From Mesoflavibacter zeaxanthinifaciens DSM 18436 (GTDB lineage: Bacteria > Bacteroidota > Bacteroidia > Flavobacteriales > Flavobacteriaceae), in NCBI RefSeq assembly GCF_000422365.1, contig NZ_AULQ01000011.1, positions 1-64,000 on the forward strand: 64,000 bases of DNA. The letters run 5' to 3'. The notes below the pieces were generated by a model. It worked only from the letters and a program-made list of their open reading frames with translations, was not told the DNA's origin and did not search any database. The translations under genes were made by a program, and so were the position numbers. Below are positions 43,664 through 51,640 of this stretch, in pieces. Positions within the stretch are counted from its first letter, which is position 1. Each line of letters begins with the position of its first letter.

Positions 43664-43679
43664 TACAAACTAATAAAAG

Positions 43680-44066
43680 TTAAATTTCATACAGCTCAAT
43701 AGGTAAGTTATCAGGATCATTAAAGAATGTAAATTTCTTGTTGGTAAACGGATCTATTCTAATACCTTCATGGGTAATATTTTTGGAATTCAAGTATTGT
43801 AAACTTTCCTCTAAATTATTTACACCAAAAGCAATATGACGTAATCCTGTCGCTTCTGGTTGCGATACGCGTTTTGGCGGATTAGGAAACGAAAATAACT
43901 CTATTATATATTGATTGTTTAATGCTAAATCTAACTTGTAAGAATCTCGGTCTTTACGATAAACTTCATTTTTTATGCTAAAACCAAGAATGTCTGTATA
44001 AAATGCTTTTGACATTTCGTAATTTGAACAGATTATGGCAATATGATGAATGGACTGTAACTGCAT
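43680..44066 (-). CDS. VOC-family glyoxalase-like protein (YaeR/GloA2-like)
   Basis: 128 residues. Single VOC domain: IHHIAIICSNYEMSKAFYTDILGF, IIELFSFPNPPKRVSQPEATGLRHIAFGV and FFNDPDNLPIELYEI. Metal ligands His, Glu, His and Glu of the glyoxalase I pattern are present. It could act on methylglyoxal-thiol adducts, although the thiol in this organism is unknown. Its ATG overlaps the OsmC stop (TAATG). Confidence 0.85.
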   Translation of the reverse strand: MQLQSIHHIAIICSNYEMSKAFYTDILGFSIKNEVYRKDRDSYKLDLALNNQYIIELFSFPNPPKRVSQPEATGLRHIAFGVNNLEESLQYLNSKNITHEGIRIDPFTNKKFTFFNDPDNLPIELYEI

Positions 44067-44467
44067 TATTTTGTTTGCTTAATATTACCTGTTATAGTAC
44101 AAACAGCTTTTACTGTATTGTAAATAGTGCCAAATTTTTCAATATTTTTTTTAAGTAAATTTAAGTTTAGATCATCATCTTTACTGTAAATTTTTAGCTC
44201 ATAAAAAACATTATCCATTCGCGGTGGTTTTTCTAAGCGCGTCGCTGTAATTTCAATTTCTGCTCTTTCATATTCAAAATGCATAAACCGAGAAAAACGT
44301 TCTATGTTTTTTAAAATGCAAGCAGATAATGACGATAAAAATAATTCTGCCGGATTTGGTAAAGAGAGATCAGTTTCTGAGGTTATACCGAAATCTATAG
44401 ATGAAGATTTTACAGTAATAGTAGCTTTTTGCTTAGCTATTGAAAATGCTTGACTTTTATATTTCAT
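44066..44467 (-). CDS. OsmC-family protein
   Basis: 133 residues. OsmC fold with PNPAELFLSSLSACILKNIERF, where the Cys of LSACI is the usual resolving/peroxidatic Cys, and VKAVCTITGNI at the C-terminus with the second Cys. OsmC/Ohr proteins detoxify organic hydroperoxides. Forms an operon with the VOC protein, and a terminator separates it from the upstream luciferase-like gene. Confidence 0.85.
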   Translation of the reverse strand: MKYKSQAFSIAKQKATITVKSSSIDFGITSETDLSLPNPAELFLSSLSACILKNIERFSRFMHFEYERAEIEITATRLEKPPRMDNVFYELKIYSKDDDLNLNLLKKNIEKFGTIYNTVKAVCTITGNIKQTK

Positions 44468-44478
44468 ACGTAAAATTA

Positions 44479-44507
44479 AAAAACGGTTTAAGAACTTTCT
44501 TAAACCG
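44479..44507 (-). terminator. terminator after the luciferase-like gene
   Basis: On the minus strand CGGTTTAAG and CTTAAACCG (44484-44507) form a perfect stem followed by TTTTTT. It ends the DJ-1-MFS-AKR-LLM operon. Confidence 0.85.
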
Positions 44508-44515
44508 CTATGAAA

Positions 44516-45481
44516 TTAATGTATAAATTCTGGAAGCACAACTTTTTCAATTTTTGAAATCGTCTCATCCAAAGGTGTATCAGATTTTCGTAAATGTAAT
44601 GCCATGTGGTTTACACCTGCCTCTTCGTAGGCTTTTAATAATTCGGTTAAATGATTAATACCAATTGCACCACCAAATCGATGTGGTTTAAATGTGGCAT
44701 CATCATCTTGTAACAGATTTAAATGAAATGCCGAAATATAAGGTTTGCAAGCCTGATCTGTATCGTATAACGCTTCGCACCATCGTTTACGGTTTAAATA
44801 GGTTTCTTCTGGTGTTCTTGGGTAATTAAACCAACCGTTGGCATTTTTGGCAATCCACTCAAGACTTTGTCCGGAATGTCCTGCAACAACTAGCGGAATC
44901 TGATGTTTTGGTTTTGGGTACACCTCAACATCTTTATTTAAAAATGGATATATGGTAGATAAATCGCTGTTGGTTTTCCAAGCCTCTTGCATAATATTAA
45001 GATGATCTCTAAACAATTTTGGTCGCTCTTGATAATCTATGCCATACATAGGAAACTCAACAGGTCTATCACCCAAACCCAAGCCTAAAATAAGTCGGCT
45101 ATCACTTAGATGTTCTATCGTAGCGGTTGCTTTAGCTAGTTTTATAGGTTGATGTAAAGGTGAAACTATTGCAGCTGTACCTAACAACACATTTTTAGTT
45201 GCGGCAGATAAATAGCCTAAATAACTTAAGGTGTCAAATAACTGTGTGCCATCACCAAAATTAGGATCGTAAACGGGTACTTCTCTAATCCAAACTGCAG
45301 CAAAACCAGCCTTATCAATTTGTTTAACGTACTGTAAATGCTTGCTTATATCTGGCACGCCAAATGGTCTACCGTCTTCCTTTCGTTTTTTATCGCCTTC
45401 TAAAGACCAATCGTTATCTAAAGGAAACTCAATACCAAGCGTCATTTTGCCTGGTGTGTAGAGTTTATCAAAATTTTTCAT
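44516..45481 (-). CDS. luciferase-like flavin oxidoreductase (BA3436 family)
   Basis: 321 residues. LLM fold: KMTLGIEFPLDNDW start, AGFAAVWIREVPVYDPNFGDGTQLFDTLSYLGYL, NVLLGTAAIVSPLHQPIKLAKATATIEHLSDSRLILGLGLGDRPVEFP, VVAGHSGQSLEWIAKNANGWFNYPR. This matches the BA3436 group of F420/FMN-type LLM proteins, with substrate unknown. Fourth gene of the operon starting at 48443. Confidence 0.87.
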   Translation of the reverse strand: MKNFDKLYTPGKMTLGIEFPLDNDWSLEGDKKRKEDGRPFGVPDISKHLQYVKQIDKAGFAAVWIREVPVYDPNFGDGTQLFDTLSYLGYLSAATKNVLLGTAAIVSPLHQPIKLAKATATIEHLSDSRLILGLGLGDRPVEFPMYGIDYQERPKLFRDHLNIMQEAWKTNSDLSTIYPFLNKDVEVYPKPKHQIPLVVAGHSGQSLEWIAKNANGWFNYPRTPEETYLNRKRWCEALYDTDQACKPYISAFHLNLLQDDDATFKPHRFGGAIGINHLTELLKAYEEAGVNHMALHLRKSDTPLDETISKIEKVVLPEFIH

Positions 45482-45501
45482 AGCAATTTTTTGAATTCAA
45501 T

Positions 45502-45533
45502 AACATCAGGTAACTACACAGCTACCTGATGTT
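45502..45533. promoter_or_regulatory. intraoperonic hairpin
   Basis: AACATCAGGTA (45502-45512) and TACCTGATGTT (45523-45533) form a perfect 11-bp stem in the 58-bp gap between the aldo/keto reductase and LLM genes. The T-tract after it is poor, so it is more likely an mRNA-processing or partial termination signal than a full terminator. Confidence 0.55.
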
Positions 45534-45539
45534 GTTTTA

Positions 45540-46478
45540 TTAAGCATTCCAAATACTGTCTGCGGTATACGGACCGTTTTCAACTTCCCAAAATGTACCA
45601 TCTATAAAACGATGATTTTTATCTAAAGCTTCAATACGTTTCATATCGTCTTCTTTCAATTCAAAATGAATGGTATCAAAGTTTTCTTGTAGACGTTTTG
45701 GGTTAACCGATTTTGGTATGACTGAAACACCACGTTGTATGTCCCAAGCTAAAAGTACTTGTGCTGCAGTCATGTTATTAGCGGTTGCGATGTCGTTAAT
45801 AGTCTTGTTTTTCAACAAAATTAATTCGTCATCATCATTTGCACCAGAACCAATTGGTGCATAAGCTGTCATGTGAATGCGATGTGTTTTAGCAAATTCT
45901 AACAGTTCGTTTTGTTGTAAAAACGGATGCACTTCTACCTGAAGCATTTCTGGTAAATGTTTAGCATGATCAATAATATTTATCAAATCATTTTGGTTGA
46001 AATTACTCATCCCAATATGCTTGGTTAAGCCTTGCTCTAAAGCATCTTCCATACCTTTCCATGTGTCCGTAAGAGGTTTGTCTTCAAGCGGAATAAATTC
46101 TTCTGCTGTTTTAGGAAACTCGACACCTTTTTTAAAGGCAACTGGCCAATGGATGAGATATAAATCTAAATACTCTAACTGTAAATCGTTTAAGGTGTTT
46201 TGTAACGCAGGAATAACGTTTTCTCTTCCATGAGAATCGCTCCATAATTTTGAAGTAATCCATAAGTCTTCACGTGTAACAATACCTTCTTTAATGGCAT
46301 CTGCAATCGCGTTTCCCACTTCTTTTTCGTTACCATATACTGAAGCACAATCAATATGTCTATATCCAATTTTTATAGCTTCGTATACAGACGTGTACAC
46401 TTCATTAGGTTCTGATCTAAAGGTACCAAGACCTAAGATTGGAATTTCGTCGTTATTTCTAAATTGTAAAGTTTTCAT
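45540..46478 (-). CDS. aldo/keto reductase
   Basis: 312 residues. AKR barrel: LGLGTFRSEPNEVYTSVYEAIKIGYRHIDCASVYGNEKEVGNAI carries Asp and Tyr of the catalytic tetrad, WITSKLW the Lys and YLIHWPV the His. NADPH site VIPKSVNPKRLQENFD near the C-terminus. Reduces aldehydes and ketones. Four-bp gap from the MFS gene. Confidence 0.92.
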   Translation of the reverse strand: MKTLQFRNNDEIPILGLGTFRSEPNEVYTSVYEAIKIGYRHIDCASVYGNEKEVGNAIADAIKEGIVTREDLWITSKLWSDSHGRENVIPALQNTLNDLQLEYLDLYLIHWPVAFKKGVEFPKTAEEFIPLEDKPLTDTWKGMEDALEQGLTKHIGMSNFNQNDLINIIDHAKHLPEMLQVEVHPFLQQNELLEFAKTHRIHMTAYAPIGSGANDDDELILLKNKTINDIATANNMTAAQVLLAWDIQRGVSVIPKSVNPKRLQENFDTIHFELKEDDMKRIEALDKNHRFIDGTFWEVENGPYTADSIWNA

Positions 46479-46482
46479 TGTT

Positions 46483-47688
46483 CTAAAGTTTTTCTTTTTT
46501 GTATAAAATCAAAGTGATTAAAAAGCCGACTATTACTAATATGCTTCCAACCCAAGGTGTTGCGCCAACACCAAGCGAAGATTCAACAATAAGTCCACCA
46601 ACATAAGCGCCAATTGCAATACCTACATTAAAGGCTGCTATATTTAAAGCAGATGAAACATCTTCGGTACCTGGTAAATATTTTTCAGACATTTTTACCA
46701 CATACAATTGTAAAGCAGGCACATTAGAAAAAGCTAATATGCCCATAAAAAATAGTGTAACAACCGACCATATTTGGCTAGATGCTGTAAAATAAAGTAT
46801 AAATAATACTATAGCTTGTAAGGCAAACATCACCATTAAGGCTTTTCCTGGCTTTTTGTTAGATACTTTACCACCAATAACATTTCCTAACGCTATTGCG
46901 ATACCGTAAACTAGTAATAAAATACTCGTCATATTTCCTGAAAAACCAGTAACTTCTTCTAATAATGGTGCTAAATAAGTAAAGGTTACAAAAGTACCAC
47001 CATAACCTAAAGCTGTGATAGCAAGCACAAGTAAAATAGAACGATTTTTAAGTACTTTTAACTGATCTACAATACGAAGTGGTTTTGATGTTTTAATCGA
47101 CGCTGTTACCAATAAGTAACTTGCTACTGCACCAATAATTCCTAAAATAGCAACACTTATAAAGGTGGCACGCCATCCAATATTTTGACCTATATAGGTT
47201 CCTAATGGTACACCTGTAACGATTGCTACAGTTAAACCAGCAAACATTATAGAAATAGCAGAAGCACGTTTATCTTCCGGTACTAAACTAGCCGCAATAG
47301 TTGAGCCTATTGAAAAGAACACACCATGCGCAAAACCTGTTAAGATTCTTGCTAAAATTAGTAAGATAAAACTTGGTGCAATAGCTGCCAATCCGTTACC
47401 AATTATAAACAATAGCATTATAGCAATTAGCAGACGTTTTCTTGCTATTTGACTTGTTAAAGCGGTTAATACTGGCGCACCAATTGCAACACCAACTGCG
47501 TATAAACTGACTAATAAACCTGCAGAGGATATTGAGGTGTTTAAATCGTTTGCTACTGTTGGCAGTAAGCCAACAATAACAAACTCTGTAGTTCCTATAC
47601 CAAATGCACTAATGGTTAATGCCCATAATGCTGCTGGTAAACTTTTACGTTTAGATTTAGCTTTTAGAGTTGCTGTTTGCGTTTTCAT
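46483..47688 (-). CDS. MFS transporter, DHA1 (AraJ/arabinose-efflux-like) type
   Basis: 401 residues and 12 predicted membrane segments. First helix WALTISAFGIGTTEFVIVGLLPTVANDL, motif A-like loop QIARKRLL, motif C in the fifth helix GLTVAIVTGVPLGTYIGQNIGWR. Families with these motifs export sugars, purines or drugs. Context suggests export of a toxic metabolite or drug. Confidence 0.9.
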   Translation of the reverse strand: MKTQTATLKAKSKRKSLPAALWALTISAFGIGTTEFVIVGLLPTVANDLNTSISSAGLLVSLYAVGVAIGAPVLTALTSQIARKRLLIAIMLLFIIGNGLAAIAPSFILLILARILTGFAHGVFFSIGSTIAASLVPEDKRASAISIMFAGLTVAIVTGVPLGTYIGQNIGWRATFISVAILGIIGAVASYLLVTASIKTSKPLRIVDQLKVLKNRSILLVLAITALGYGGTFVTFTYLAPLLEEVTGFSGNMTSILLLVYGIAIALGNVIGGKVSNKKPGKALMVMFALQAIVLFILYFTASSQIWSVVTLFFMGILAFSNVPALQLYVVKMSEKYLPGTEDVSSALNIAAFNVGIAIGAYVGGLIVESSLGVGATPWVGSILVIVGFLITLILYKKEKL

Positions 47689-47690
47689 TT

Positions 47691-48443
47691 TTAGTGTTTA
47701 TCCTCTAAAAGTTCTACAATTTTTTCTGCTGTTAATTTTGCAGAAGCAGGATTTTGACCTGTTACTAAACGTTCATCTACGCTTACTTTTTCCTGCCACA
47801 TAGCTGCTTTATCTACAGTCGCACCACGTTCAATAAGTTTATCTTCTAATAAAAATGGCACCACGTTTTCTAATTTTACATTAGCTTCTTCTTCATTAGT
47901 AAATACGCTTACCGTTTTACCTTCAACTAAATAATTACCATTAGATAATTTAATATTTACTAAAGCCGAAGGACCATGACAAACAGCTGCTACAACACCG
48001 TCGTTTTCATAAATTTTTGCAGCAATTTTTGCTAGCTTTTTATTGTTTGGAAAATCCCACATTGTGCCATGTCCGCCAGCATAATAAATGGCATCGTAAT
48101 CTTTAGCTTTTACTTTTGAAACTTTTAATGTGTTTTGAAGTTTATTCTGAAATGTTGAATCATTCCAATATTTATTATTCACTTCATCTTTAAGATCGAA
48201 ACCATCTACTGGTGGATTGCCGCCTTCTGGACTTACTAAGGTTATTTCATAATTATTAGCTTCAAAAACCTCGTAAGCATGGGTAACTTCACTTAAATAA
48301 TAACCAGTGTCTTTACCTGTATCACCTAATTCTTGATGACTAGATAGCACCATTAATACGCTTGGTTTGTCTTGTTGTGTTTGTGCTATTAAGGCAATGC
48401 TAAAAAGCAAAGCGATTGCTGAGAAATAAAATTTTGTTTTCAT
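47691..48443 (-). CDS. DJ-1/PfpI-family protein with signal peptide (HchA-like)
   Basis: 250 residues from MKTKFYFSAI; the frame extends 11 codons up but without a signal. Signal peptide ends LIAQ. Class I glutamine-amidotransferase-like fold: nucleophilic Cys in AAVCHGPSAL, with GGHGTMWDFP upstream. A Glu near DTGYYLSEVTHAYEVFE fits the Hsp31/YedU subgroup. The predicted export of a DJ-1 homologue is unusual. First gene of a four-gene operon, just downstream of three CRP-like boxes. Confidence 0.88.
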   Translation of the reverse strand: MKTKFYFSAIALLFSIALIAQTQQDKPSVLMVLSSHQELGDTGKDTGYYLSEVTHAYEVFEANNYEITLVSPEGGNPPVDGFDLKDEVNNKYWNDSTFQNKLQNTLKVSKVKAKDYDAIYYAGGHGTMWDFPNNKKLAKIAAKIYENDGVVAAVCHGPSALVNIKLSNGNYLVEGKTVSVFTNEEEANVKLENVVPFLLEDKLIERGATVDKAAMWQEKVSVDERLVTGQNPASAKLTAEKIVELLEDKH

Positions 48444-48503
48444 TGTTTTGTTTTTTGTTTTAAAATTCTGGTACAAAATTCAATGAAAAGCACTACTTGT
48501 GCG

Positions 48504-48563
48504 AGGATGTATGTCACGATTTTAAAGTGATGTATCGCAACAAAAAAATGTGATGTATATCAC
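48504..48563. promoter_or_regulatory. three CRP-like palindromes with a 23-bp period
   Basis: AGGATGTATGTCAC (48504-48517), GTGATGTATCGCAA (48527-48540) and GTGATGTATATCAC (48550-48563) have centres exactly 23 bp apart. The third is nearly perfect as GTGAT-N4-ATCAC. They lie 60-120 bp upstream of the DJ-1 gene and next to the Crp-type gene. Confidence 0.6.
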
Positions 48564-48567
48564 TTTT

Positions 48568-49140
48568 TTAACCTTTAAAACGGCTTAAGGTTTCTCTAGA
48601 TACACCTAAATAGGCTGCAATCAGTTTTTTAGGTACGCGCTGTACTAATTTTGGAAGTTTAAATAATAAAGCGTCGTAACGTTCTTCGGCAGTTTGTGTT
48701 AATAAAGACAGGATACGTTGCTGCAAACCGATAAATCCGTAATTAGATTTTATTCGGAAGAAATTTGCCATAGCAGGAATTTTTTGACAAATGGTTTCAC
48801 GACTTTCTAAAGACAAACAGAAAAACTCAGAATCTTCAATACAATCTACAAAAATTGTGGCAGGTATTTGATGCTGAAATGCATAATAGTCGCTAACCCA
48901 ATAGTCTTCCATAGCAAACTGAAGAATGTGCTCGCTACCTTTTTCATCTACAGCATAAGATTTTATTAGTCCGTTGATAATCCAAAATTCACAATCTACA
49001 GGTTGTCCTGTTTGAATTAAAAACTGATGTTTTTTAAGTTTTTTATGTTCAAAATGAGGTGCAATAAAATTCCACTCTTCATCAGTAAGTGTTACAATTT
49101 CTTCAAAATGTTGTTTTAAGAGTTGGTATTTGTCTTGCAT
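48568..49140 (-). CDS. Crp/Fnr-family transcriptional regulator
   Basis: 190 residues. N-terminal cyclic-nucleotide-like domain (KKHQFLIQTGQPVDCEFWIINGLIKSYAVDEKGSEHILQFA) without an arginine phosphate-binding signature, so the ligand is probably not cAMP. C-terminal helix-turn-helix KKLIAAYLGVSRETLSRFK. It follows the HxlR gene by 16 bp on the same strand. The three adjacent palindromes are its likely targets. Confidence 0.9.
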   Translation of the reverse strand: MQDKYQLLKQHFEEIVTLTDEEWNFIAPHFEHKKLKKHQFLIQTGQPVDCEFWIINGLIKSYAVDEKGSEHILQFAMEDYWVSDYYAFQHQIPATIFVDCIEDSEFFCLSLESRETICQKIPAMANFFRIKSNYGFIGLQQRILSLLTQTAEERYDALLFKLPKLVQRVPKKLIAAYLGVSRETLSRFKG

Positions 49141-49156
49141 GCTGCAAAAATAGAAA

Positions 49157-49516
49157 TTATAAAGTTACAATTCTGCATGCCTCAAACTCTATTTCATTAT
49201 AGCTGTCTTGAGTCCATTGGCTCAAACTTTTAAGAATTGGTAGTAAAGCTTTGCCTTTTTCAGATAAAGAATATTCTACACGTGGTGGTATTTCGGCATA
49301 TTTTTTTCTAATAATAATCCCATCTTCTTCAAGCTCTCGTAATTGTTCTGTCAATACTTTTTTTGATATGGTAGGTGTAAACATTAACAACTTACCAAAG
49401 CGTAAACTTCCGTTAGCTAATAAGTAAATTAAAATCGGTTTCCACTTATTTCCTATAACATTCATGGCATGAACTAAAGAACATACATTTGGATTATCAA
49501 TGACCTTTCTTCCCAT
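49157..49516 (-). CDS. HxlR-family transcriptional regulator
   Basis: 119 residues. HxlR winged helix: CSLVHAMNVIGNKWKPILIYLLANGSLRFGKLL, PTISKKVLTEQLRELEEDGIIIRKKY, VEYSLSEKGKALLPIL. A single Cys at position 12 sits where YodB/QorR-type sensors have their redox Cys. Divergent from an MdaB-like quinone reductase, the classic target of quinone-sensing HxlR proteins. Confidence 0.92.
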   Translation of the reverse strand: MGRKVIDNPNVCSLVHAMNVIGNKWKPILIYLLANGSLRFGKLLMFTPTISKKVLTEQLRELEEDGIIIRKKYAEIPPRVEYSLSEKGKALLPILKSLSQWTQDSYNEIEFEACRIVTL

Positions 49517-49517
49517 T

Positions 49518-49551
49518 AGTTACCGTTTTGTAACCACTTTATAATGTGGTT
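49518..49551. promoter_or_regulatory. HxlR operator candidates
   Basis: GTTAC-N6-GTAAC (49519-49534) and AACCAC-N8-GTGGTT (49532-49551) lie between the divergent HxlR and MdaB-like genes. Confidence 0.5.
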
Positions 49552-49621
49552 TATTTTATATTAGTTTCAAAAATAAACTATTATTAGTTTCTTTGCAATA
49601 CTAATTTAAAATTTTATAAAA

Positions 49622-50215
49622 ATGAAAAATATTTTAATTATTAATGGTCATCAATATTATCCCTTTGCAGAAGGAAAATTAAATCAATCTTTTGTTGAAA
49701 AACTATCAGCTCAATTAAAAGAGGCTAACTTAAATATCAAAACTACCGTAACTCAAAATGAATACAATGTAGATGAGGAAGTAGAAAAATTTCTTTGGGC
49801 AGATGTGGTATTTTTACAAACGCCCTTAAACTGGATGGGCATTACGTGGTCGTTTAAAAAATATATGGATGATGTATTTACCGCAGGAATGATGGGAAAA
49901 CTATCGCAAGGTGATGGTCGTACTTCTGAAGCACCAAAAAAGAATTATGGTTTAGGTGGTTTGTTAAAAGGCAAATATATGATGTCTGTAACTGCAAATG
50001 CGCCTAAAGAGGCTTTTAACAATCCTGACGAGCCTTTTTTTGCTGGTAAAAGTGAAGACGACTTGTTATTACCAATGCATCTCAACTTTAAATGGTTTGG
50101 TTTAGAGCCTTTAAAAACATTTTTTGCTTACGATGTGATGAAAAATCCAGATATTGAAAATGACTTTGCAAGATTTGAAAAACATATAAATGAAGAACTA
50201 ATTCAAAAACTATAA
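49622..50215 (+). CDS. NAD(P)H-dependent quinone reductase (MdaB-like)
   Basis: 197 residues. Flavodoxin-like fold: ILIINGHQYYPFAEGKLNQSFVEKL phosphate-binding start, DVVFLQTPLNWMGITWSFKKYMDDVF, LKGKYMMSVTANAPKEAFNN, and FFAYDVMKNP. Typical of MdaB, a two-electron quinone reductase. With the next two genes it may form an operon (40-bp and 9-bp gaps). Confidence 0.88.
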   Translation: MKNILIINGHQYYPFAEGKLNQSFVEKLSAQLKEANLNIKTTVTQNEYNVDEEVEKFLWADVVFLQTPLNWMGITWSFKKYMDDVFTAGMMGKLSQGDGRTSEAPKKNYGLGGLLKGKYMMSVTANAPKEAFNNPDEPFFAGKSEDDLLLPMHLNFKWFGLEPLKTFFAYDVMKNPDIENDFARFEKHINEELIQKL

Positions 50216-50255
50216 TCCATTAAAGAGCTCTCTCTTTAAATAAAAAAACTATAAA

Positions 50256-50774
50256 ATGAACAGACCAACACCAAAGCACGCAGCACCAAATTTAACTTTT
50301 CCGGTATTAGATGGTAACGAATGGCAGATTAACAATCAGCAACCAGAAAATTTCACTTTAGTGGTTTTTTATAGAGGTTTACATTGCCCATTGTGCAAAA
50401 AATATTTACAACAATTAGAAGAGTTATTACCAGAATTTAAAGAAAGAGGCGTTAACGTTATTGCTGTAAGTATGGATTCTGAGTCTAGAGCACGCTTATC
50501 ACGTCAAAAATGGGAACTATCAGAATTACAATTAGGTTATAACTTAGATTTAGAAACAGCTAAAAACTGGGGATTATATTTAAGTAAAGCTGTAAAAGAC
50601 GGTGAACCAGACACATTTAGTGAACCAGGACTATTTTTAATAGACAATAACAATAAAGTCTATTATTCTGCTATAAATAGTAATCCTTGGGGAAGACCTT
50701 ATTTACCGTCATTTGTAAAGGCTGTAGATTATATTGTGTCTTCAGGTTATCCTGCAAGAGGCGAAATGTTATAA
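50256..50774 (+). CDS. AhpC/TSA-family peroxiredoxin-like protein
   Basis: 172 residues. FYRGLHCPLCKKYLQQLEELL contains a CxxC in place of the usual PxxxC peroxiredoxin motif, then VNVIAVSMDSESRARLSRQKWEL and EPGLFLIDNNNKVYY. This AhpC/TSA-like group (CPxC) may reduce peroxides or act as a disulfide reductase. Same direction and near the MdaB-like gene. Confidence 0.83.
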   Translation: MNRPTPKHAAPNLTFPVLDGNEWQINNQQPENFTLVVFYRGLHCPLCKKYLQQLEELLPEFKERGVNVIAVSMDSESRARLSRQKWELSELQLGYNLDLETAKNWGLYLSKAVKDGEPDTFSEPGLFLIDNNNKVYYSAINSNPWGRPYLPSFVKAVDYIVSSGYPARGEML

Positions 50775-50783
50775 ATTTGTAAT

Positions 50784-51416
50784 ATGGATTACACCGAAAA
50801 AACATATTATTACGACTACGACAGTTCTGTCATAAAAGATATTATAAAAAACGTCGAACATTTAACTTCTCAGCAAGATATTATAGAACAATTGTATCTA
50901 AAGGTTAGAGATGGTTGGCGTTATTTACCTTTTAATATTGGTTTAACAAAAGTACATTTTAAAGCTAGTAATATTGCAAAAAAACCAGATGGACATTGCA
51001 TAGATAAAGCCATTTTATACATTGCTTGTTTACGCGCCTTTAATATTCCTGCAAGGTTACATTTAGCTAAAGTATCTAACCACATTGCTACAGAACGTTT
51101 AGAAAAAGTGATTGGCACTAACGAGCTGGCACCTCATGGTTTGGTAGATGTATTTTATAATGGCAAATGGGTTAAATGTTCGCCTGCGTTTAATAAAGAA
51201 CTATGTACTATTTACAATGTAGATGTTTTAGATTTTAATGGTACCGAAGATGCTGTGTTGCAAGAATACAATAAAGACGATCATAAATTTATGACCTACA
51301 TTGAAGATTATGGTCATTTTGAAGATGTCCCTTTAGAATTTATAAAGGATACATTTAAATCAAATTATCCTAGTCTTTATGAAAGATTTAAAGGTCAGGG
51401 TCATATTGTAATTTAA
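50784..51416 (+). CDS. transglutaminase-like domain protein
   Basis: 210 residues. Transglutaminase core: KPDGHCIDKAILYIACLRAFNIPARLHLA contains the nucleophile Cys, HGLVDVFYNGKWVKCSPA the His and downstream Asp. No signal peptide, so cytoplasmic protease- or amidase-like activity is more likely than cross-linking. Substrate unknown. Starts 9 bp after the peroxiredoxin-like gene. Confidence 0.83.
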   Translation: MDYTEKTYYYDYDSSVIKDIIKNVEHLTSQQDIIEQLYLKVRDGWRYLPFNIGLTKVHFKASNIAKKPDGHCIDKAILYIACLRAFNIPARLHLAKVSNHIATERLEKVIGTNELAPHGLVDVFYNGKWVKCSPAFNKELCTIYNVDVLDFNGTEDAVLQEYNKDDHKFMTYIEDYGHFEDVPLEFIKDTFKSNYPSLYERFKGQGHIVI

Positions 51417-51640
51417 AACAAACATAATTTGCAATCAGAACTAAGTCAGATACAAGCCTTTTTAACCTTTTTATAAAAATTATTCATTCTGTAATTACAC
51501 AATTTACATCCAAATCATAATGATTTGTTCCTGAATATTTCTTAAAAAAGAAAACTCGCGAATGTTTTCTAGTATAAAAAGTTAAAAAACATTTTCAAAA
51601 AAAGATTTAAACAGTGTAAAAACTTATATTCGCGCCCATT

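Follow-up and report, generated by a model that had tools for sequence, protein, structure and literature searches.

In Escherichia coli, the regulator CRP reads GTGA through base contacts made by its recognition helix, GCSRETVGR, and binds cAMP through Arg82 and Ser83, which hold the phosphate, and through Glu72; its class II/III promoters have a site at -41.5 together with further sites upstream. FNR recognizes a different half-site, TTGAT. Among solved structures, the closest relative of the protein discussed here is 3dn7, a cyclic-nucleotide-binding regulatory protein of Cytophaga hutchinsonii from structural genomics (E 3.5e-45; by fold, Foldseek E 8.8e-15, with Z 23.1 over 148 residues and rmsd 1.4), which is about 30% identical, is represented by a structure-library chain that covers 148 residues, and carries no function or site in the sources covered. 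Within the same phylum, the account of BT4338, the ‘Crp’ of Bacteroides thetaiotaomicron, gives a palindrome of 22 bp that comes from a comparative-genomic prediction, with consensus TATGTTnTAnAACATA, and a sugar regulon of global scope, with up to 30 genes in each genome (PMC3878776). Crp/Fnr-type genes account for up to 25 matches per Bacteroidota genome (60 genomes), and few of these genes were found with an assigned operator.

The locus described here resembles that of E. coli CRP in its GTGA-N6-TCAC half-sites, in the conservation of the helix residues R180, E181 and R185 and, by an inferred start, in a proximal site at -41.5. It differs in that its sites lie end to end every 23 bp with TCCT as the promoter-side half-site, in serving a single local target operon from a promoter with a Bacteroidota-type -7 element, and in residues of the ligand pocket (Arg82 to Ala94, Ser83 to Thr95) that make cAMP binding unlikely. 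FNR of Aliivibrio fischeri (5cvr/5e44) has a similar fold (Z 19.0-19.5 over 184-185 residues) and an ETLSR-type helix end; unlike FNR, the protein has no N-terminal cluster-binding extension (residue 1 of the model aligns with FNR residue 17), and its half-site is GTGA rather than TTGAT. With BT4338 it shares the phylum, the Crp family and a predicted palindrome, and it differs from that system, as far as the available account of it goes, in its GTGA half-sites, its tandem array and its one adjacent operon. The parts seen of the literature covered, which included PMC7366714, PMC6847099, PMC3878776, PMC12125979 and PMC9478572 and took in few subscription papers, hold no description of this subfamily's array.

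Three tandem sites behind a Crp-type gene

The window, by which we mean the whole stretch of 64,000 nucleotides analysed, from Mesoflavibacter zeaxanthinifaciens DSM 18436, contains three 14-mers that follow one another with an exact 23-bp period (Table 1). Read in the order of transcription, the minus strand presents hxlR, the Crp-type gene, the three sites, a -7-like element, the start and the DJ-1 operon. The initial annotation had reported three palindromes with this period and had placed them between the Crp/Fnr-type gene and the operon, and their centres, period and location are all confirmed; the term palindrome suits the third of them, the distal site GTGATGTATATCAC, in which six of seven pairs are complementary and which agrees with GTGA-N6-TCAC at eight of eight positions, making it a near-perfect palindrome, and does not suit the other two. 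The proximal and middle sites are degenerate, each with 3/7 complementary pairs and 6/8 consensus bases; the middle site is without a full left half, and the promoter-side half-site of the proximal one is TCCT, not TCAC.

Table 1. Positions of the predicted regulatory elements and of the genes around them.
Feature	Position	Strand	Detail
Promoter-proximal operator (predicted)	48504..48517	minus	forward AGGATGTATGTCAC, minus strand GTGACATACATCCT; centre 48510.5, predicted -41.5
Middle operator (predicted)	48527..48540	minus	forward GTGATGTATCGCAA, minus strand TTGCGATACATCAC; centre 48533.5, predicted -64.5
Distal operator (predicted)	48550..48563	minus	forward GTGATGTATATCAC, minus strand GTGATATACATCAC; centre 48556.5, predicted -87.5
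Predicted -7 element GAATTTTG	48474..48481	minus	Bacteroidota consensus TAnnTTTG; G replaces T at -12
Predicted transcription start (A)	48469	minus	26 nt before likely DJ-1 ATG 48443
HxlR-family regulator, directly upstream of the Crp gene, same strand	49157..49516	minus	
Crp/Fnr-type regulator, 190 aa, recognition helix GVSRETLSR	48568..49140	minus	proposed ligand-responsive activator of the array
DJ-1/PfpI family protein, probable signal peptide, first operon gene	47691..48443	minus	ORF 47691-48476; ATG 48443 preferred
MFS efflux transporter	46483..47688	minus	
Aldo/keto reductase	45540..46478	minus	
LLM-class flavin oxidoreductase (TIGR03571 family)	44516..45481	minus	
OsmC-like protein, probable further operon gene	44066..44467	minus	
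VOC/glyoxalase family protein, probable further operon gene	43680..44066	minus	

The triple at 23-bp spacing is far above chance: its summed score is 20 of 24 and that of the runner-up in the window is 16, and in 100 first-order Markov sequences of 64 kb the best triple scored 14-17 in 99 cases and 19 in one. In 30 Markov sequences for which any period from 15 to 60 was permitted, the scores reached 16-18. One such site, by itself, is uninformative. The genome search for GTGATGTATATCAC that the initial annotation had suggested gave 15 matches with at most two mismatches, as against 22 in a reversed control; one of the 15 was exact, and it is the sole occurrence in the 2.97-Mb genome. As single-site matches in this genome are not above the reversed control, no wider regulon is claimed. 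A search of the same genome for a second array found none: three mismatches allowed 4 matches, fewer than the 8 of the reversed control, and the known array alone has as few as two. The Rfam search of 47500-50500 gave no match.

The array and its regulator subfamily

To follow the array beyond this genome, the Crp protein was searched in 60 related genomes, ten close members were aligned, and the alignment was used to fetch loci. The 80 loci fetched, all from named genomes, rank highest among 587 candidates and are not independent; clustering at 75% identity reduced them to 34 clusters, of which 29 are anchored, with two sites in 28 and the TTTG described below likewise in 28. Among these best 80 of 587, the helix GV[ST]RE[TS]LSR is present in all 80 (exactly SRETLSR in 73), at least two GTGA-N6-TCAC-like sites lie exactly 23 bp apart in 78, and a perfect GTGA-N6-TCAC lies between -10 and +250 of the regulator stop codon in 71, where the other 791,116 positions of that DNA set a background expectation of 0.006 per locus. 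The two loci outside the 78 are L069, whose contig ends 89 nt past the regulator gene, and L120, which is without a second site.

When 74 loci were anchored on their first site, a second site with at least 6/8 consensus bases was found at exactly +23 in 66 and one with at least 5/8 in 73, as compared with rates of 0.17% and 2.0%, respectively, at other offsets; the neighbouring offsets 22 and 24 gave a second site in one locus and in none. A third site, at +46, occurs in 11 of the 74, the three-site clade to which the distal site is confined. The TCCT half-site of the window recurs in 59/74, and AAA stands midway between the two dimer sites in 55/73, as against 1 and 2 of 62 two-site loci at the outer flank positions. 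Six loci have no anchor: L069, cut short by its contig, and five others in which the array lies farther off or is inverted (L109, L054, L072, L108 and L111), pointing away from the regulator gene in the last three. Among the ten close members, L024-L026 (46-48% identical) each show one perfect site, and no second one reaches the threshold used.

The converse search, from DNA pattern to protein, gave the same pairing. The pattern GTGA-N6-TCAC-N9-GTGA-N6-TCCT was searched in 397 genomes of the family and 198 of the phylum, samples that share some genomes, and yielded 25 exact arrays in 25 of the former and five in five of the latter, all 30 of them distinct; the reversed pattern gave no array in either the 397 or the 198. 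Every one of the 30 lies downstream, and on the same strand, of a gene from this Crp-like subfamily, so that the array is usable as a search key leading from pattern alone to regulator. The regulator stop codon is at most 251 bp away in 24 (19 of the family sample and all five of the phylum sample), and six arrays lie about 1.77 kb from the regulator, where a three-site array also stands directly behind the regulator gene. The window's own array is two mismatches off the exact pattern, and prevalence is therefore underestimated. At 19 loci of more distant Crp homologues there was neither a perfect site nor an array, and the helix was of another type in the 17 of them in which it was read; the genome's own two Crp paralogues likewise have no perfect site and no array. 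The proposal that the sites are operators of the adjacent Crp-like protein, placed before the DJ-1/MFS/AKR/LLM operon, has thus held up well (78/80 loci, 30/30 pattern arrays, 0/19 homologues), and the sites are strongly supported, from sequence, as predicted operators of that protein. The array is also wider than was first seen, since it recurs beside this type of regulator in many Bacteroidota.

Six related genomes (L155-L160) carry a second array in the cluster, of two sites with the same 23-bp pitch and -7 element, about 1.77 kb beyond the stop codon of the regulator, and these clusters would have two promoters under one regulator.

Promoter geometry and the mode of regulation

In 71 of the 74 anchored loci, a TTTG starts at a set distance after the first base of the proximal site, 40 nt in 61 of them and 41 nt in the other 10, whereas other offsets have it in 0.28 loci each on average; L066, L074 and L110 are without it. 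What computation establishes is the presence and exact spacing of the sites, together with their pairing with the regulator subfamily and their fixed distance from the -7 element. The -7 element of Flavobacterium johnsoniae spans T-12 to G-5 in the available part of the published account (PMC6847099), and this geometry, applied to the fixed TTTG, puts +1 at position 48 and, in the 61 loci with 40-nt spacing, the centre of the proximal site at -41.5. The +1 so assigned is a purine in 59 of these 61, and the window's sites would fall at the positions given in Table 1, on a start taken from the published Flavobacterium geometry. T at -12 is present in 5/71 loci only, and a -33-type TTTG, 17-21 nt upstream of the -7 element, in 4/71. 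The degraded -12 position, the rarity of a -33 TTTG and the site at -41.5 together point to a class II activator design: given the inferred start, the promoter has the site near -41.5 and the weak core of a class II Crp-dependent promoter. A sigma-70 promoter scan is uninformative at this locus because Bacteroidota promoters differ.

The spacing of the TTTG may vary with the proximal half-site. Where that half-site is not TCCT, the TTTG lies one base farther in 7/14 loci (L060, L078, L080, L086, L091, L106 and L115), as against 3/57; TCCT is thus paired with 40- and 41-nt spacing in 54 and 3 loci against 7 and 7 (Fisher p 2e-4, with relatedness ignored), which is a lead.

We consider it very probable that the three sites form a tandem operator array of the adjacent Crp-like protein, acting as a class II activator of the DJ-1 operon. 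Binding, activation and cooperativity at the array are what we infer from this arrangement: dimers of the protein would occupy the GTGA-N6-TCAC sites end to end, the proximal dimer touching RNA polymerase as a class II activator from -41.5 of the operon promoter, and the added dimers at -64.5 and -87.5 would raise occupancy. As the promoter looks poor on its own, with a degraded -7 element and no -33 element, the operon would be turned on once the protein encounters its signal, which we would guess not to be cAMP and perhaps to be a reactive electrophile or quinone acting via the invariant Cys100. The steep response that the initial annotation expected of side-by-side dimers is a plausible candidate property of such an array.

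An activator position may also be compatible with repression in the absence of signal. It is a separate suggestion that the Crp-like protein targets the array and represses outright, as some Crp-family proteins do, with the array hindering RNA polymerase and HxlR activating; this is improbable, since repressor sites typically lie on or downstream of the core promoter, and these sites are upstream of it, at -41.5 and beyond, in fixed phase, next to a core that is degraded at -12 and has no -33 TTTG in 67/71 loci. The hxlR gene is adjacent, and HxlR proteins bind short palindromes, which could make the HxlR-family regulator the owner of the sites; as a relative of it is present in the fetched flanks of only 5/80 loci, against 78/80 with the array, we rejected this as extremely improbable.

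Alternatively, the distal palindrome might end transcription of the regulator gene, its hairpin and a subsequent T-run standing just behind the stop codon. On the minus strand GTGATATACATCAC is indeed followed by ATTTTTTT, it begins 4 nt after the regulator stop codon, and the 86-nt region folds at -13 kcal/mol; this folding, however, is ordinary (z -1.45, with 20/200 shuffles folding equally well), the terminator scan did not report the palindrome, and the combination of stable GC-rich hairpin and T-run that marks an intrinsic terminator was not found. In relatives an A-rich spacer, with the midway AAA noted above, comes after the site, whose distance from the stop codon ranges from -4 to 138 nt, yet whose distances to the next site and to the -7 element are fixed; the site is also repeated, and the arrays of L072, L108 and L111 face away from the regulator gene. 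The unremarkable fold, the repetition and the fixed -7 distance led us to reject the terminator as highly improbable. Hardly any probability attaches to a chance repeat in AT-rich DNA: single near-matches are common there, and two of the three copies are degenerate, but the score exceeds those of the Markov sequences, and conservation across loci and genomes already refutes chance, which we likewise rejected.

Regulator, targets and origin of the block

The presumed activator of the operon has a PF00027 match of 35.9 bits (cut-off 27.5) and an HTH_Crp_2 match under its cut-off (20 against 27 bits). Its AlphaFold model (34 sequences; mean pLDDT 96) has the Crp/Fnr fold, with an N-terminal cNMP-binding beta-roll and a C-terminal HTH, and aligns over both domains with CRP/FNR structures. 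The helix GVSRETLSR aligns residue for residue with that of CRP, which explains the GTGA half-sites; R180, E181 and R185 of CRP correspond to R182, E183 and R187, invariant in 34/34 representatives. Dimer binding to palindromic half-sites is thus predicted, with sites and helix in agreement. The three cAMP-binding residues Arg82, Ser83 and Glu72 align with Ala94, Thr95 and Asp84, and the first two replacements make cAMP unlikely as the ligand. The protein is therefore CRP-like, as first described, in its half-site and recognition helix, and probably not in a cAMP signal. Cys100 is invariant in 34/34 subfamily representatives and Cys118 is present in at least 90%, and both are candidate redox or electrophile sensors.

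While the array stays constant, the gene that follows it varies. In a census of first genes at 72 loci, DJ-1/PfpI came first in 25, a tautomerase in 20 and a RidA-like protein in 7, followed by flavodoxin-like reductase, DoxX and cupin with 4 each. Genes were called by a simple rule, some starts are possibly imperfect (e.g., L067, L086 and L115), and 8/80 loci were left out as having no credible first gene (L050, L057, L061, L069, L107, L108, L110 and L111). The operon in the window contributes aldo/keto reductase, OsmC-like and glyoxalase-type genes as well. The targets appear to be mostly of detoxification type, and varied, across many Bacteroidota, and these genes, together with the invariant Cys100, suggest a reactive electrophile as the signal, which could be reactive carbonyls, quinones or similar compounds.

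What the array provides is a regulator with a predicted operator, promoter position and target rule (the operon next door) at single-base precision, and, with its invariant 23-bp pitch, it is a natural system in which to study how adjacent Crp-type dimers would cooperate with the unusual Bacteroidota polymerase. A bolder and distinctly tentative reading, which we think has some chance of being right, is that these are widespread, partly mobile sensor cassettes of Bacteroidota, in which a cyclic-nucleotide-independent Crp relative senses an electrophile or quinone via Cys100 and, as touching dimers every 23 bp upstream from -41.5, acts on the promoter of the detoxification operon behind its gene. 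If so, the conserved TCCT half-site and the AAA would be parts of a cooperative lattice of dimer, dimer and polymerase.

The history of the block bears on its mobility. Window positions 44559-51421 are 95.7% identical to a locus of Meridianimaribacter flavus (L046; the same block is found in genome G030) and 94.0% identical to one of Winogradskyella marincola (L059), and the piece 43673-44069 is 91.4% and 89.2% identical to them, respectively. Between the two pieces, the OsmC-like gene has no counterpart in the aligned DNA; it sits in a 490-nt stretch where M. flavus has 40 nt. No similarity was reported in the compared flanks beyond 43673-51421. The rpoB region, in comparison, is 84.4% identical to that of G030 and 91.0% to that of the congener G001, and G001 is without the regulator, giving one distant match only (E 4.7e-5). 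The excess of block identity over rpoB identity and the congener without the regulator make it probable that the detoxification cassette, in a block of about 7.7 kb, was acquired by recent horizontal transfer.

The HxlR gene is divergent from genes at 49622-51416 that encode a flavodoxin-like reductase, a peroxiredoxin-like protein and a transglutaminase-like protein, and a hairpin with a T-rich tail lies between hxlR and these divergent genes, at 49532-49551.
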